In this document: in pieces, positions 43,735-56,957 of the stretch | How the letters are laid out: every line of letters starts with the position of its first letter | Position numbering within the stretch: the first letter of the stretch is position 1 | Assembly: GCA_016927425.1 (NCBI GenBank) | Contig: JAFGMR010000020.1 | Coordinates: forward strand, 1-64,000 | DNA length: 64,000 nt | Direction: 5' to 3' | DNA from: Methanotrichaceae archaeon | GTDB lineage: Archaea; Halobacteriota; Methanosarcinia; Methanotrichales; Methanotrichaceae | Position numbers and translations under genes: made by a program | Notes under the pieces: generated by a model | Seen by the model: the letters and a program-made list of their open reading frames with translations, nothing else | What the model was told of the DNA's origin: nothing | Database searches by the model: none

Positions 43735-43845
43735 CAAGATATCGATCGAGTACCATCTCTCACAATTCAACCGGTCCAGCCTAACCATGCTCCTGAGCGA
43801 TGGCGACAAGATATCGATTGAGTACTATCTCTCATAATTCAACCG
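43735..43845. repeat. Two 39-nt direct repeats with 33-nt spacer (CRISPR-like pair)
   Basis: CAAGATATCGATCGAGTACC... (43735-43773) and its second copy (43807-43845) are 39 nt each. They differ by three C-to-T transitions and are separated by a unique 33-nt spacer. The size resembles one CRISPR unit, but only two copies exist, and no cas gene is in view. A degenerate sequence TTGATCAGTATCTCAAG near 43690 may be a third relic. Confidence 0.5.
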
Positions 43846-52171: not shown

Positions 52172-53673
52172 TTGGATGATGGAAGAGAGATCCATTTGGC
52201 TTGTGGGGGAGCGCTGGCCCTGCTCCTGGTGCTGTTTGCCTTTCTCACAGGGACGGCATTTGGCGAGTGCAGCACGTTTGACAACTTCGGGATCGCCAAT
52301 GTCTGGACGATCGAAGCCTATCCAGCCTGGGCCGAAAGGCACATCGCCTGGACGCTCCAGGATGGCGCGCTCCATGCGGCAATCGAGCTAAAGCATGCGC
52401 CGTTGCAAGAATTCCTTGGGGACGCCAATCTTTCGAGGTCGATTGCCGGCCCGGCCCTCGTAGCCTTCGTTTGGAGGATGGATCATCTGCCGCCAAAGGA
52501 AGCTTCGATCGAGAACTCGATCGAGAACTCGACCGAGATGGATGGCTTCTTCCTCCTTATCGACGGGAGGATCGAGAAGGCCTGCACCTCGACGGAGTGG
52601 GACGAAGAGAGGATCGAGCTTGGCGTTGGTCGGCATAACCTGACGTGGATGCTATCCAAGGATAGAGGCGGATGGAATGCGAGCGGCTGGATCGACCGGA
52701 TCTGCATCGACTGCCTTATCACGGCCGCCGATCGCGTCATGGCCGGCGTCCCGTCCCATGCCCTCGTTGCCGATGCCGGGGCCGATGCCGTATACAACTG
52801 GACGATTGCCGGAGGCGAGATCATATCCGGACAGGGCACGCCCTCGATTACCTGGGCCGCCCGGGATGCAGGCGCAGCAAAGATCTCGGTCGAGGTCTCG
52901 GCTTTCGGGATGGCTTGCGAGTGCGAGAAGGAGATCGCCGTTTATGGATGCTCCATTCAGGTCCCCGGTTGGGTGGTCTCCGACGTTGCTTACAATGCTT
53001 CCGTCGCCGATGCTGGGGCCGATGCCGTATACAACTGGACGATTGCCGGAGGCGAGATCATCTCAGGCCGGGCCACGCCCTCGATCGCCTGGGCCGCCCG
53101 GGATGCAGGCATGGTGAGGATCTCGGTCGATGTTGCCGCCCCTGGAATAGAAGCTGAATGCGAGAAGGAGATCATGGTCTATGAATGCTCCATCCAGGCG
53201 CTCGATTGGGTCGTCTCAGGGGGGATTACAATGCGACAGCGCCGGATGCAGGGCCAGAGGCCAGTTACAATTGGACCGTCAGCGGCGCAAGGATCATCTC
53301 CGGCCAGGGGACGAGATCGATCGAGTGGCACGCAGGAAGCGGTGGCCCGGTGATGATCGGCCTTGTAGTCTCTGTCGATGGATTCAAAGCCGAGTGCGAG
53401 AAGGCGATTGAAGTCTACAGGTGCGCCATAAGCTCTCCCGGAATTGTGCGCTCAGGCAGCCGCTACAATGCGTCGGTTGCTGATGCCGGTTCAGGCGCAA
53501 CTTACGAATGGACCGTGAGCGGCGGAAGCATTCTCTCCGGCCAAGGGACGAGGGAGATCGAATGGCGCTGCGACAGGGTTATGAGGACATCCATTGGCGT
53601 GAATGTCTCTGTCTCGAGGGACGGCATGGTGTCCGAATGCCACAAAGAGTGGGATTTGCGCAGCTTCTCGTGA
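52172..53673 (+). pseudogene. Secreted PKD-like repeat protein, frameshifted in a G-run
   Basis: The frame starts at TTG 52172 behind GGGGGAG and opens with a signal peptide (LACGGALALLLVLFAFLTGTAFG). A lectin/laminin-G-like region with FDNFGIANVWTIE follows, then four repeats of about 75 residues. Each repeat carries (V)ADAGADAVYNWTIAGGEIISG, a TWAARDAG turn and an ECEKEI(A/M)VYECSI end. In the third repeat (53219-53224) six Gs interrupt the frame: the first frame reads VVSGG then goes wrong, while one more G would give VVSGGDYNATAPDAGPEASYNWTVSG, matching the other repeats. The remainder (53225-53673) is in the second frame and ends after the last repeat. The repeats are PKD/Ig-like surface modules; phase variation, decay or a sequencing error could explain the shift. 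Confidence 0.8.
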
Positions 53674-54046
53674 ACCATTCGGATGGCGATGGAGGCGTGC
53701 TCTCGCCTACGCGCCCTATTGCAGAGGGCTGACGTCTGCGGGCGACGGCCGGCGGCCGTCCGCCAGCGGTTCGCGCATCAATTGTGCGTAGGGCCTGCCC
53801 TGCCGTCGGGAGAAACTGTGGGGCTTGCGATCTTTTTCATCAAGGACATGATGCCAGGCTTTCTCTGCCTTGGGGGGCCCCATCTGGAAGCCCGGGATAC
53901 CAAGGCCGGAGCCTCCAAAGGACTCGCTGTTGAAGCGGTCCTTGATCTCGTCGAATATCCTCTTCTAGGCGACGTATGTTGAAGTCGACGCTCAAGGCCT
54001 CGCCTCCGGTCGGCAGAATGGCGTTATGGGGGCAGCCGTCCCGGCA
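53500..54046. repeat. Left copy of a ~550-bp segmental duplication
   Basis: Contains the last repeat of the PKD-like gene, about 110 nearly identical bases of intergenic sequence, and the antisense 3' end of a radical SAM gene. The right copy is at 55452-56003. The intergenic part (GGCGTGCTCTCGCCT..., 53695-53780) is the most alike. Confidence 0.85.
53778..54046 (-). pseudogene. 3' remnant of a radical SAM/SPASM gene
   Basis: Reads YYCRDGCPHNAILPTGG at its start, then after one extra nucleotide near 53975, IFDEIKDRFN, GFQMGPPREAKPGIMSLMKKIA and the stop. These match the C-terminal 85 residues of the intact enzyme at 55734-56957. It lacks the whole 5' part and is frameshifted. Confidence 0.85.
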
Positions 54047-54125
54047 ATAATACACCATCGACATCCTTTTCTTCTCACAACCACATCCCACATCATCCCG
54101 GACTTCCGGGTGGAACGTGATCACT

Positions 54126-55019
54126 ATGAAGATGAAAAACGCCGCTATAATCATCACCATGCTCCTCATCTGCACCGAATGGGCTGCTGCAGTGGACAAT
54201 CCGCAGGGAAACAACCCGGTCTGCGGTCCGTGCAGTTCGTACGGTCTGCAATTTGACGGACCGCTTGAGTATACCCCGTATCCGGAACCACTCAATGTCG
54301 GTGCCCAGAATCCGGGGAAGATCTATGTTGTCTACTCGGTCATCGACGAGGAAAGCAGACCCTGGTGGACTCAGGCTACTGGAGTCTGGCAGGCCTGGGG
54401 CCCGTATGAGTTTAAAAGCGGTAAGGGCTATATCCTCGAATTCGGACCACAGGACATCGTCGGCATGACCGAAGGGCCGCTCCCATACTATGTCGAAGGA
54501 ACTGCCGCATGGTTGCAGGAGGAGAACGTCGATTACTGGGAGGAAAATTCCTATTCCTACTGTATCGTACCAGAAGGACAGTTCCTCAACGCAAGCACCA
54601 CCCACGCCCCGGTTCCTGCCACAGGAGAAGAGGCCCTCATCCTTGATATCGACACCCTCGGAGCAGTCTATAATGGACCAACCGCAAGTGTTTACCTTAA
54701 TCTGGCCGAGAAGACCAGGATCACAAAGATCCAGACGTATCACTGGAATTATGGGGCAGGAACCGAATCACCGGGATCCATCCTGATCGTTGATATGAAC
54801 TCACAAGAATCTGACGGAGGATATCCAATGACCGAGTATGAGGCATACGGACTGGAAGGGTCAGGCGGTGCACCGAACGCGTACTGGGTAGTTGAGCCTG
54901 ACCTTGTTTTAGAGCCTGGAAAGTACATGATCCTCGACTCGGAAAACTCCACCTGGGCTCAGAACGATGAGACTGGCGGCATCGGTGTCACGAAGGTCTG
55001 GGGTATTGTCGAGTCCTGA
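54126..55019 (+). CDS. Secreted hypothetical protein in inserted segment
   Basis: About 297 residues: signal peptide KNAAIIITMLLICTEWAAA, then a mature acidic, aromatic-rich beta-type protein (DGPLEYTPYPEPLNVG, TGVWQAWGPYEFKSGKGYIL, YWVVEPDLVLEPGKYMILDSENSTWA). A CGPCSS pair lies near the N-terminus. ATG 54126 fits the signal peptide; GTG 54117 is possible. GAA is used more than GAG and arginine is rare, unlike flanking genes, which fits transfer. It lies exactly between the two copies of the duplication. Family unknown. Confidence 0.7.
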   Translation: MKMKNAAIIITMLLICTEWAAAVDNPQGNNPVCGPCSSYGLQFDGPLEYTPYPEPLNVGAQNPGKIYVVYSVIDEESRPWWTQATGVWQAWGPYEFKSGKGYILEFGPQDIVGMTEGPLPYYVEGTAAWLQEENVDYWEENSYSYCIVPEGQFLNASTTHAPVPATGEEALILDIDTLGAVYNGPTASVYLNLAEKTRITKIQTYHWNYGAGTESPGSILIVDMNSQESDGGYPMTEYEAYGLEGSGGAPNAYWVVEPDLVLEPGKYMILDSENSTWAQNDETGGIGVTKVWGIVES

Positions 55020-55041
55020 ACCAGCAGAAAGAAGATCCATC

Positions 55042-55155
55042 GTATCCGCTTCAAATTAGAGGGTAACTGACACCATTTCAAGATCGAATGCCTGCTTGCG
55101 CACTTGATTTAGATGATCCGAATGTGCATTTTACCCTGCTTTTTGAAGTGGATAC
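55042..55155. mobile_element. MITE-like element, copy 1
   Basis: 114 bp starting GTATCCGCTTCAAA and ending TTTTTGAAGTGGATAC; the ends are inverted repeats with 13 of 14 matches. It differs from copy 2 by two substitutions and a 3-nt gap. Confidence 0.8.
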
Positions 55156-55157
55156 TA

Positions 55158-55227
55158 ATTCGCGTTCATTCGCGTTCATTCGTGGCTAAGTATTTAAAAC
55201 CACTAATGCACACTAATGAACACGAAT
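55158..55227. repeat. Imperfect 28-nt palindrome in the element centre
   Basis: Left arm 55158-55185 and right arm 55200-55227 pair with 23 of 28 matches around a 14-nt loop. The left arm contains ATTCGCGTTCATTCGCG, also present in reverse complement at 43844-43860. Confidence 0.7.
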
Positions 55228-55229
55228 CC

Positions 55230-55346
55230 GTATCCGCTTCAAATTAGAGGGTAACTGACACCATTTCAAGATCGAATGCCTGCTTCCGCACTTGATTTAG
55301 ATGATCCGAATGTGCATTTTGCCCTGCTGCTTTTTGAAGTGGATAC
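55230..55346. mobile_element. MITE-like element, copy 2
   Basis: 117 bp, same orientation and same terminal inverted repeats as copy 1, with the extra three bases in CTGCTGCTTTTTG. It ends directly at the right GATCCATC. Confidence 0.8.
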
Positions 55347-55451
55347 GATCCATCCTTTTTTCATGGGCGAAGACCGATGCAGCAGTATTGCCCCCCTGGT
55401 ATGAACAGATGGAATCTGACCACCTGAGATGTCGACGGCAGTCCTGGTGTG

Positions 55452-56003
55452 ACTTATGATTAGGACCGTAAGCGGCGAAAGCATTCTATCCTGCCAGGGG
55501 ACGAGGGAGATCGAATGGAGATGCGGGTGGAGCACTGCATCCATTGGCGTGGAAGTCTCCGTCTCGATGGAAGGCATGGGATACATCTGCTATAGAGATT
55601 GATCGCTCTCCCGGCTCGGGATCTTGCTAACGAGCTGGACGGCAACGGAGGCGTGCTCTCGCCTCCGCGCCCTCTTACAGAGGGCTGACGTCTGCGGGCG
55701 ATGGCCGGCGGCCGTCCGCCAGCGGTTCGCGCATCAATTGTACGTAGGGCCTGTATTGCCTTCGGGAGACTCTGCAGGCCTCGCGATCTTTTTCATCAGC
55801 GACATGATGCCCGGCTTTGCCTCCCTTGGGGGTCCCATCTGGAATCCTGGAATATCGAGGCCCGAGCCTCCGAAGAACTCCTTGTTGAACCGGTCCTTGA
55901 TCTCGTCGAATATCCTCTTGTAGGCGACGCAGTGAGGGTCGACGTTTAAAACCTTCCCTCCGCTCGGCGCCATGGCGTTATAGGGGCAGCCGCCCCGGCA
56001 GTA
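55452..56003. repeat. Right copy of the ~550-bp segmental duplication
   Basis: Same order as the left copy at 53500-54046: PKD-like last-repeat fragment, near-identical intergenic bases, and the 3' end of the radical SAM gene, here part of the intact gene. Confidence 0.85.
55465..55602 (+). pseudogene. PKD-like last-repeat fragment
   Basis: Forty-five codons and a stop (TVSGESILSCQGTREIEW, then SIGVEVSVSMEGMG). They match the last repeat of the frameshifted gene upstream, but with no 5' part. It is convergent with the intact radical SAM gene. Confidence 0.8.
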
Positions 56004-56957
56004 CTTGATATGAGCGCAGCTTTTGCATTCCCGGTCGACGAACTCCTTGAACTGGTGCATGAGCTTCCAGGCGTCGGATCTCGCCAGGTCCTCCATAGTT
56101 GGATGATCGTAGACGGAACCCATCACGAACTCCGGCATGCCGACGAAGCGATAGCAGGGATATATGCTGCCATCGGGTCCCACCGCAAATGTATCCCCCA
56201 TGCAATCGACGTATGTGCATACGGTTCCACGGCCTACGAGGACGCATCTTAAGAGGTCGTCGATGTTTCGAATCTCGATCTCGCCGATGTTCTCGATATA
56301 TTTGTCGAGGAGATATACCAGGAGCTCTCCATACTCCTCGGGGGGAAGCGCCCATCTATCCGGGTCCTTGTCGCGCAGAGACGGGAGCGCCGGATGGAGC
56401 TTGAGGGTGAAGCCGTTCTCCAAAAAGAAGTTAAATATATCCTCCTTGAAGTTGATGGAGTACGATGTAAACGTGCAGATGAACTGGACCTGGAGGCCAG
56501 CCTCCTTAGCAATCTCGAGGCCTCGCATCGTCTTTTCGAAATAACCCTCGCTCCTCTGCAGGTCGTTTAGCTCCTTTGGGCCGTCGATGCTCGATCCGAT
56601 GGGGATCTTGTACTTGGCAAGCACCCTTGCCAGCTCCGGCGTGAGCTTCCAGAGGTTGGTCTGAAGGGCAAAGGCGATTTGCAGGTGAGACAATCCCTGG
56701 GTGAGCAATGGCAGGGCCTGGCGGTAGAACTCAACGCCAGCTAAGAGCGGCTCTCCTCCGTGGAACGTGAATGTGATCGTATCGTTGCGGAAATCCTTGA
56801 GCCACTCGACCACCTCCTTGATCGTCTCTATGCTCATTACGGGGGACCTCTCGTCAGAGCTCCAGCAGTAGGCGCAGCTTGAGGGGCAGCCGAGCGTTGG
56901 GATCAGCATCACGTGAAAGGGCATTTCCGAAGCACCAATTGCGTCGATGCCCTCCAA
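55734..56957 (-). CDS. Radical SAM/SPASM enzyme, peptide-maturase type
   Basis: About 407 residues. The radical SAM cluster motif C-x3-C-x2-C is in LGCPSSCAYCW (C24, C28, C31), followed by FTFHGGEPLLAG and the anSME-like barrel. The SPASM region has CTYVDCMGD...PCYRF and ECKSCAHIKYCRGGCPYNA, which can hold two auxiliary clusters. The layout matches enzymes that modify Cys-rich peptides or sulfatases; I recall a methanogen peptide-modifying group (Mhun_1560-like), a tentative placement. Start TTG 56957 has no ribosome-binding site and ATG 56924 is an alternative. A TATA box lies at about 57053-57064. A convergent PKD-like gene is its old neighbour. Confidence 0.88.
   Translation of the reverse strand: MEGIDAIGASEMPFHVMLIPTLGCPSSCAYCWSSDERSPVMSIETIKEVVEWLKDFRNDTITFTFHGGEPLLAGVEFYRQALPLLTQGLSHLQIAFALQTNLWKLTPELARVLAKYKIPIGSSIDGPKELNDLQRSEGYFEKTMRGLEIAKEAGLQVQFICTFTSYSINFKEDIFNFFLENGFTLKLHPALPSLRDKDPDRWALPPEEYGELLVYLLDKYIENIGEIEIRNIDDLLRCVLVGRGTVCTYVDCMGDTFAVGPDGSIYPCYRFVGMPEFVMGSVYDHPTMEDLARSDAWKLMHQFKEFVDRECKSCAHIKYCRGGCPYNAMAPSGGKVLNVDPHCVAYKRIFDEIKDRFNKEFFGGSGLDIPGFQMGPPREAKPGIMSLMKKIARPAESPEGNTGPTYN

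Follow-up and report, generated by a model that had tools for sequence, protein, structure and literature searches.

How did two nearly identical MITEs come to enclose a hairpin between a single pair of 8-bp repeats? The question is raised by a block at 55034-55354 of the window, the whole stretch of 64,000 nucleotides of Methanotrichaceae DNA analysed here. The block may have arrived as one mobile unit, or it may have been put together at this site by separate events.

Layout of the block and its borders

The block begins with an 8-bp target-site duplication, GATCCATC (55034-55041), followed by MITE copy A (114 bp, 55042-55155; ends GTATCCGCTTCAAATTAGAGGGTAA and, at the right end as the reverse complement, GTATCCACTTCAAAAAGCAGGGTAA), a 74-bp hairpin (55156-55229), MITE copy B (117 bp, 55230-55346) and a second GATCCATC (55347-55354), all given on the forward strand, with the duplications read at base level. 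An earlier note had claimed a 114/117-bp pair with GTATCC...GGATAC ends in direct orientation around a 74-bp hairpin centre, bordered by GATCCATC on both outer sides; its coordinates are exact to the base, and both outer repeats are present. Alignment confirms the direct orientation; relative to A, copy B is substituted at two positions and carries 3 inserted bp. The inverted ends of the 114-bp element are imperfect and about 25 bp long, and inspection of the ORFs agrees with the claim that no transposase is encoded. Each MITE copy folds end to end better than its shuffled versions (z -5.3 for A, z -3.6 for B), and so does the 74-bp centre (z -3.7). The whole composite measures 305 bp between the duplications. 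It occupies an intergenic site: to its left a 300-codon ORF ends at 55019, and to its right lies a convergent, putatively radical-SAM-like ORF on the minus strand (55734-56957); no gene is evidently disrupted by it in the ORF list of the window, where Rfam matches are to tRNAs only.

The centre, apparently a captured repeat, is one unit of a dispersed family found at dozens of places in the same genome, at some of which the units repeat in tandem every 81 bp (C46:43713-44179). Within the window the repeat occurs at 43844 and 55158. Its core, ATTCGYGTTCATTCGYG, has 53 exact matches in the genome and none in the 294 other genomes sampled from the phylum, and the majority of the copies do not adjoin a MITE. 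A search for papers on the hairpin motif found none.

The GATCCATC duplication is confined to the outer borders and is absent between MITE A, the hairpin and MITE B. The outer flanks are identical at 8/8 positions, whereas the inner 8-mers, TAATTCGC after A and ACGAATCC before B, match neither each other nor GATCCATC. Such a picture could also arise if two MITEs had inserted independently next to a hairpin and their outermost 8 bp agreed by accident, and MITEs nested in or adjoining one another do occur (L174/L177). However, nested cases retain an inner duplication and the window has none; for example, a nested MITE in G096 has the inner duplication CTGATTTT plus the outer TTATTTTA, and no uninterrupted host sequence for it was found. 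With a probability of about 1e-5 to 1e-3 for the outer match (~1.5e-5 for chance identity of the two border 8-mers when equal base frequencies are assumed), a fortuitous agreement of this kind is very improbable.

The MITE family and its IS66-like parent

The earlier note suggested a search for further GTATCC-ended copies, and these were found in the same genome, at C63 and C11, and in many relatives. The genome contains four full MITE copies, namely A, B, C63:109-222 (98% identity to A) and C11:22301-22413 (89%). The last of these stands alone ~20 bp past a tRNA-Pro gene, flanked by an exact duplication of its own, ATATGGAT. Across the class, 40 of 238 genomes show a match (E 0.01 or better); matches of ~27 bp cover the MITE ends only, and their source can be an IS or a longer variant. 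The 16 genomes examined in depth contain 2 to 39 matches each at E 0.001. Hosts include Methanosaeta sp. UBA204, an ANME-3 Methanosarcinaceae MAG (L070) and a Methanosarcinales MAG (L067, L071). Plasmids and viral contigs gave no match when searched, and the literature search, with subscription literature and ISfinder outside its scope, yielded no paper on the family.

An exact 8-bp direct repeat surrounds 30 of the 51 distinct single MITE copies with enough flank, while repeats of 5, 6, 7 and 9 bp are found at one copy each; a looser flank requirement gives 31 of 52 for 8 bp. Among 2550 control pairs of mismatched left and right flanks, 2 agree over 8 bp. Set against this control, the 30 copies fix the duplication length of the family at 8 bp, the rule that GATCCATC follows. 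On these signatures the MITE family is real and mobile. One copy, L074 (G232:C175:1328-1438), the same element as L070, has flanks that are inverted and not direct (ATTTC / GAAAT); they lengthen its terminal inverted repeat and show no duplication.

A search for an IS with the same ends, also suggested in the note, was successful, and relatives of that IS have 8-bp duplications. In Methanosaeta sp. UBA204 there is a 27-bp match to the MITE left end, and the contigs stop just inside an ORF. In G098, a 2053-bp IS has both ends, GTATCCGCTCCAAATTAGAGGGTAACT and TTTTACCCTACTTTTTGGAGTGGATAC; its reading frame is broken in three pieces, two of which give weak IS66 matches. Uninterrupted relatives of the transposase, 550-559 aa long, are present in G232, G137 and G051. 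They score 47.9-56.3 bits against PF03050 (cut-off 23.1) and match NF033517 at E 3e-31 to 2e-35, with 109-123 bits, which is below the equivalog cut-off of 180. By these profile matches, the parent is assigned an IS66 DDE transposase. Each IS inspected has only one large ORF. Methanosarcinaceae relatives of the IS (family f3, genus g18) carry GTATCCTCTTCAA ends flanked by exact 8-bp duplications, namely ACTTATTT, GAATGTTT and TAATCAAT in elements of 1775, 1789 and 1810 bp, respectively; no duplication is left at the flanks of the three longer ISs that are nearest to the MITE. Many of the IS66-like transposase matches in this genus (L124, L125, L127, L129, L145-L148) contain a single in-frame TAG; it may encode pyrrolysine in these hosts, or it may mark a broken gene.

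Taken together, the transposase matches, the ends and the 8-bp duplications point to an IS66-like parent with the single-ORF layout of the ISBst12 group. Like the parent, ISBst12-type members of the IS66 family have an 8-bp duplication, imperfect terminal inverted repeats and one large transposase ORF, and the tnpA/tnpB accessory ORFs are absent in this group. An 8-bp repeat is reported for ISDge4 of the ISBst12 group (PMC12898284), and two IS66 ISs are listed with 8 bp (PMC3281130). The ends of the parent family start with GTATCC, unlike those of ISDge4 (GTAACTGCTC/GTGACTACTC). Compared with the known family, the parent transposases are divergent by their NF033517 scores, and the window element is without an ORF.

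The genome that harbours the composite has no match to the parent transposase at E 1e-20, but 93 bp from the left end of the parent IS survive in it at C63, as a remnant. Its assembly is 99% complete and consists of 94 contigs. Multi-copy ISs are often missing from assemblies of this kind. The helper transposase would have been lost from this genome or would lie outside the assembly.

The C63 locus and the origin of the composite

The homology between C63 and the window starts exactly at GTATCC and runs through the MITE and the hairpin, with the same junction between them, to GAATCC. To the left of GTATCC, the two loci are unrelated (AAACAATG versus GATCCATC); AAACAATG sits in the 93-bp remnant, inside a truncated IS of the MITE's family. 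Since the edge of homology coincides exactly with the transposon end, MITE and hairpin have a common history as one block, which suggests that the MITE-hairpin block is older than the window site. The C63 contig breaks within a hairpin array, so its sequence covers only the left half of what would be a second copy; the complete composite is known in one copy.

Of the two readings that the note had offered, transposition of the composite fits better, given that GATCCATC is missing from the interior of the block and that C63, with another left flank, has the MITE-hairpin junction too; internal duplication is disfavoured, and the matter is not proven. Internal duplication supposes that one MITE inserted, that it was then duplicated in tandem at the site to give the second, and that a hairpin was inserted there as well. 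Tandem pairs do exist, for example in the relative G234:C186. The units of that pair are separated by its flank, AGATTATAC, whereas in the window GATCCATC does not recur between A and B; moreover, the MITE-hairpin junction is common to C63, where it stands under another flank. We therefore consider assembly in place to be improbable.

A different course of events would begin with a solo MITE that made the GATCCATC duplication; through homologous recombination or gene conversion, the composite would later have replaced it, copied from a MITE-hairpin-MITE block at another locus, for instance that at C63. The homology needed is available, as A and B are near-identical to the C63 MITE (2 and 6 alignment differences, respectively) and a related block exists there, and the outcome would look identical to insertion of a composite. 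But for conversion, too, a composite must already have existed, and a further event is needed on top; a solo-MITE version of the window site is not known. This course is possible but rather unlikely.

We thus return to transposition of the composite. The block is best described as a 305-bp composite non-autonomous transposon that probably moved as one unit. In this proposal, two MITEs of the IS66-like family would have come to flank one hairpin unit in direct orientation; an IS66-like transposase, supplied in trans, would have acted on the two outermost ends, left in A and right in B, both together in a single event; and the whole block would have inserted at an intergenic site, duplicating GATCCATC. 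The comparison with C63 favours movement of the composite as a unit; repeated movement of such a composite would explain both loci, and conversion of a solo MITE would explain the window as well.

The note had also suggested looking for an empty site. When the joined flanks were searched for in 50 genomes of the family, none of the relatives proved to have them; the matches were the window itself, its duplicate farther upstream and two short stretches of genes. The upstream duplicate belongs to a direct duplication of ~550 bp with 80% identity (window 53500-54049 and 55451-56002), which includes the 3' end of a radical-SAM-like gene and whose left copy resembles a truncated remnant. This duplication, at 53.5 and 55.45 kb, was rejected as a paralogous empty site, as it starts ~100 bp downstream of the insertion.

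Hairpin cargo and known composites

Longer members of the family also carry internal DNA. Elements of 248, 537, 247 and 378 bp have the exact duplications GAAAATTG, GACTTTTG, GATCAATG and TTATTTTT, respectively, and these duplications in members with internal DNA indicate that the ends of the family can move cargo. A TTTGCGTCTTTGCG-type hairpin lies between the MITE ends of the 248-bp element (L071), TTTGCGTCTTTGCG-type and ATCTGCGTTCATCTGCGG-type hairpins lie between those of the 537-bp element (L067), and an ATCTGTG-type hairpin lies between those of the 247-bp and 378-bp elements (L094 and L080). Parts of one carried block are common to L071, L089, L090, L067 and L119, at different sites. 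As read from these elements, carriage of hairpins by the ends of this family is recurrent in related archaea, in whose genomes hairpins are abundant. On the basis of no fewer than four distinct hairpin sequences, from three archaeal families, we tentatively raise the possibility that IS66-type MITE ends in this archaeal class have time and again captured dispersed palindromic repeats and spread them as cargo.

Two-MITE composites are already known from bacteria. TIME-COMP elements are composites of Tn3-derived MITEs whose movement as one unit was shown experimentally (PMC4133298). As in the window, two MITEs flank other DNA within one outer duplication, the orientation in TIME-COMP being direct or inverted. 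TIME-COMP elements belong to the Tn3 family and have a 5-bp duplication and kilobase gene cargo, whereas the window composite is IS66-like, has an 8-bp duplication and a 74-bp hairpin as cargo, and is known from sequence alone. Membership in the Tn3-derived TIME family was rejected on account of the IS66-like parent and the duplication of 8 and not 5 bp; the composite would resemble a TIME-COMP in its way of working only. In Acinetobacter johnsonii (PMC3934969), a blaPER-1 segment has the same MITE at both ends and is thought to have been mobilised; the MITE there is another one (439 bp), with gene cargo on a plasmid. The window block is an archaeal case with an IS66-like family, in a relative of Methanosaeta.

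What this locus adds is a widespread IS66-like MITE family in relatives of Methanosaeta and in other Methanosarcinia, including an ANME-3 genome; the 8-bp signature of this family is clean, and a parent IS has been identified for it. The composite offers a small, readable archaeal example of two MITEs that would mobilise the DNA between them. If the reading of hairpins as recurrent cargo is true, MITE ends might serve quite generally to carry hairpin repeats that are otherwise unexplained.
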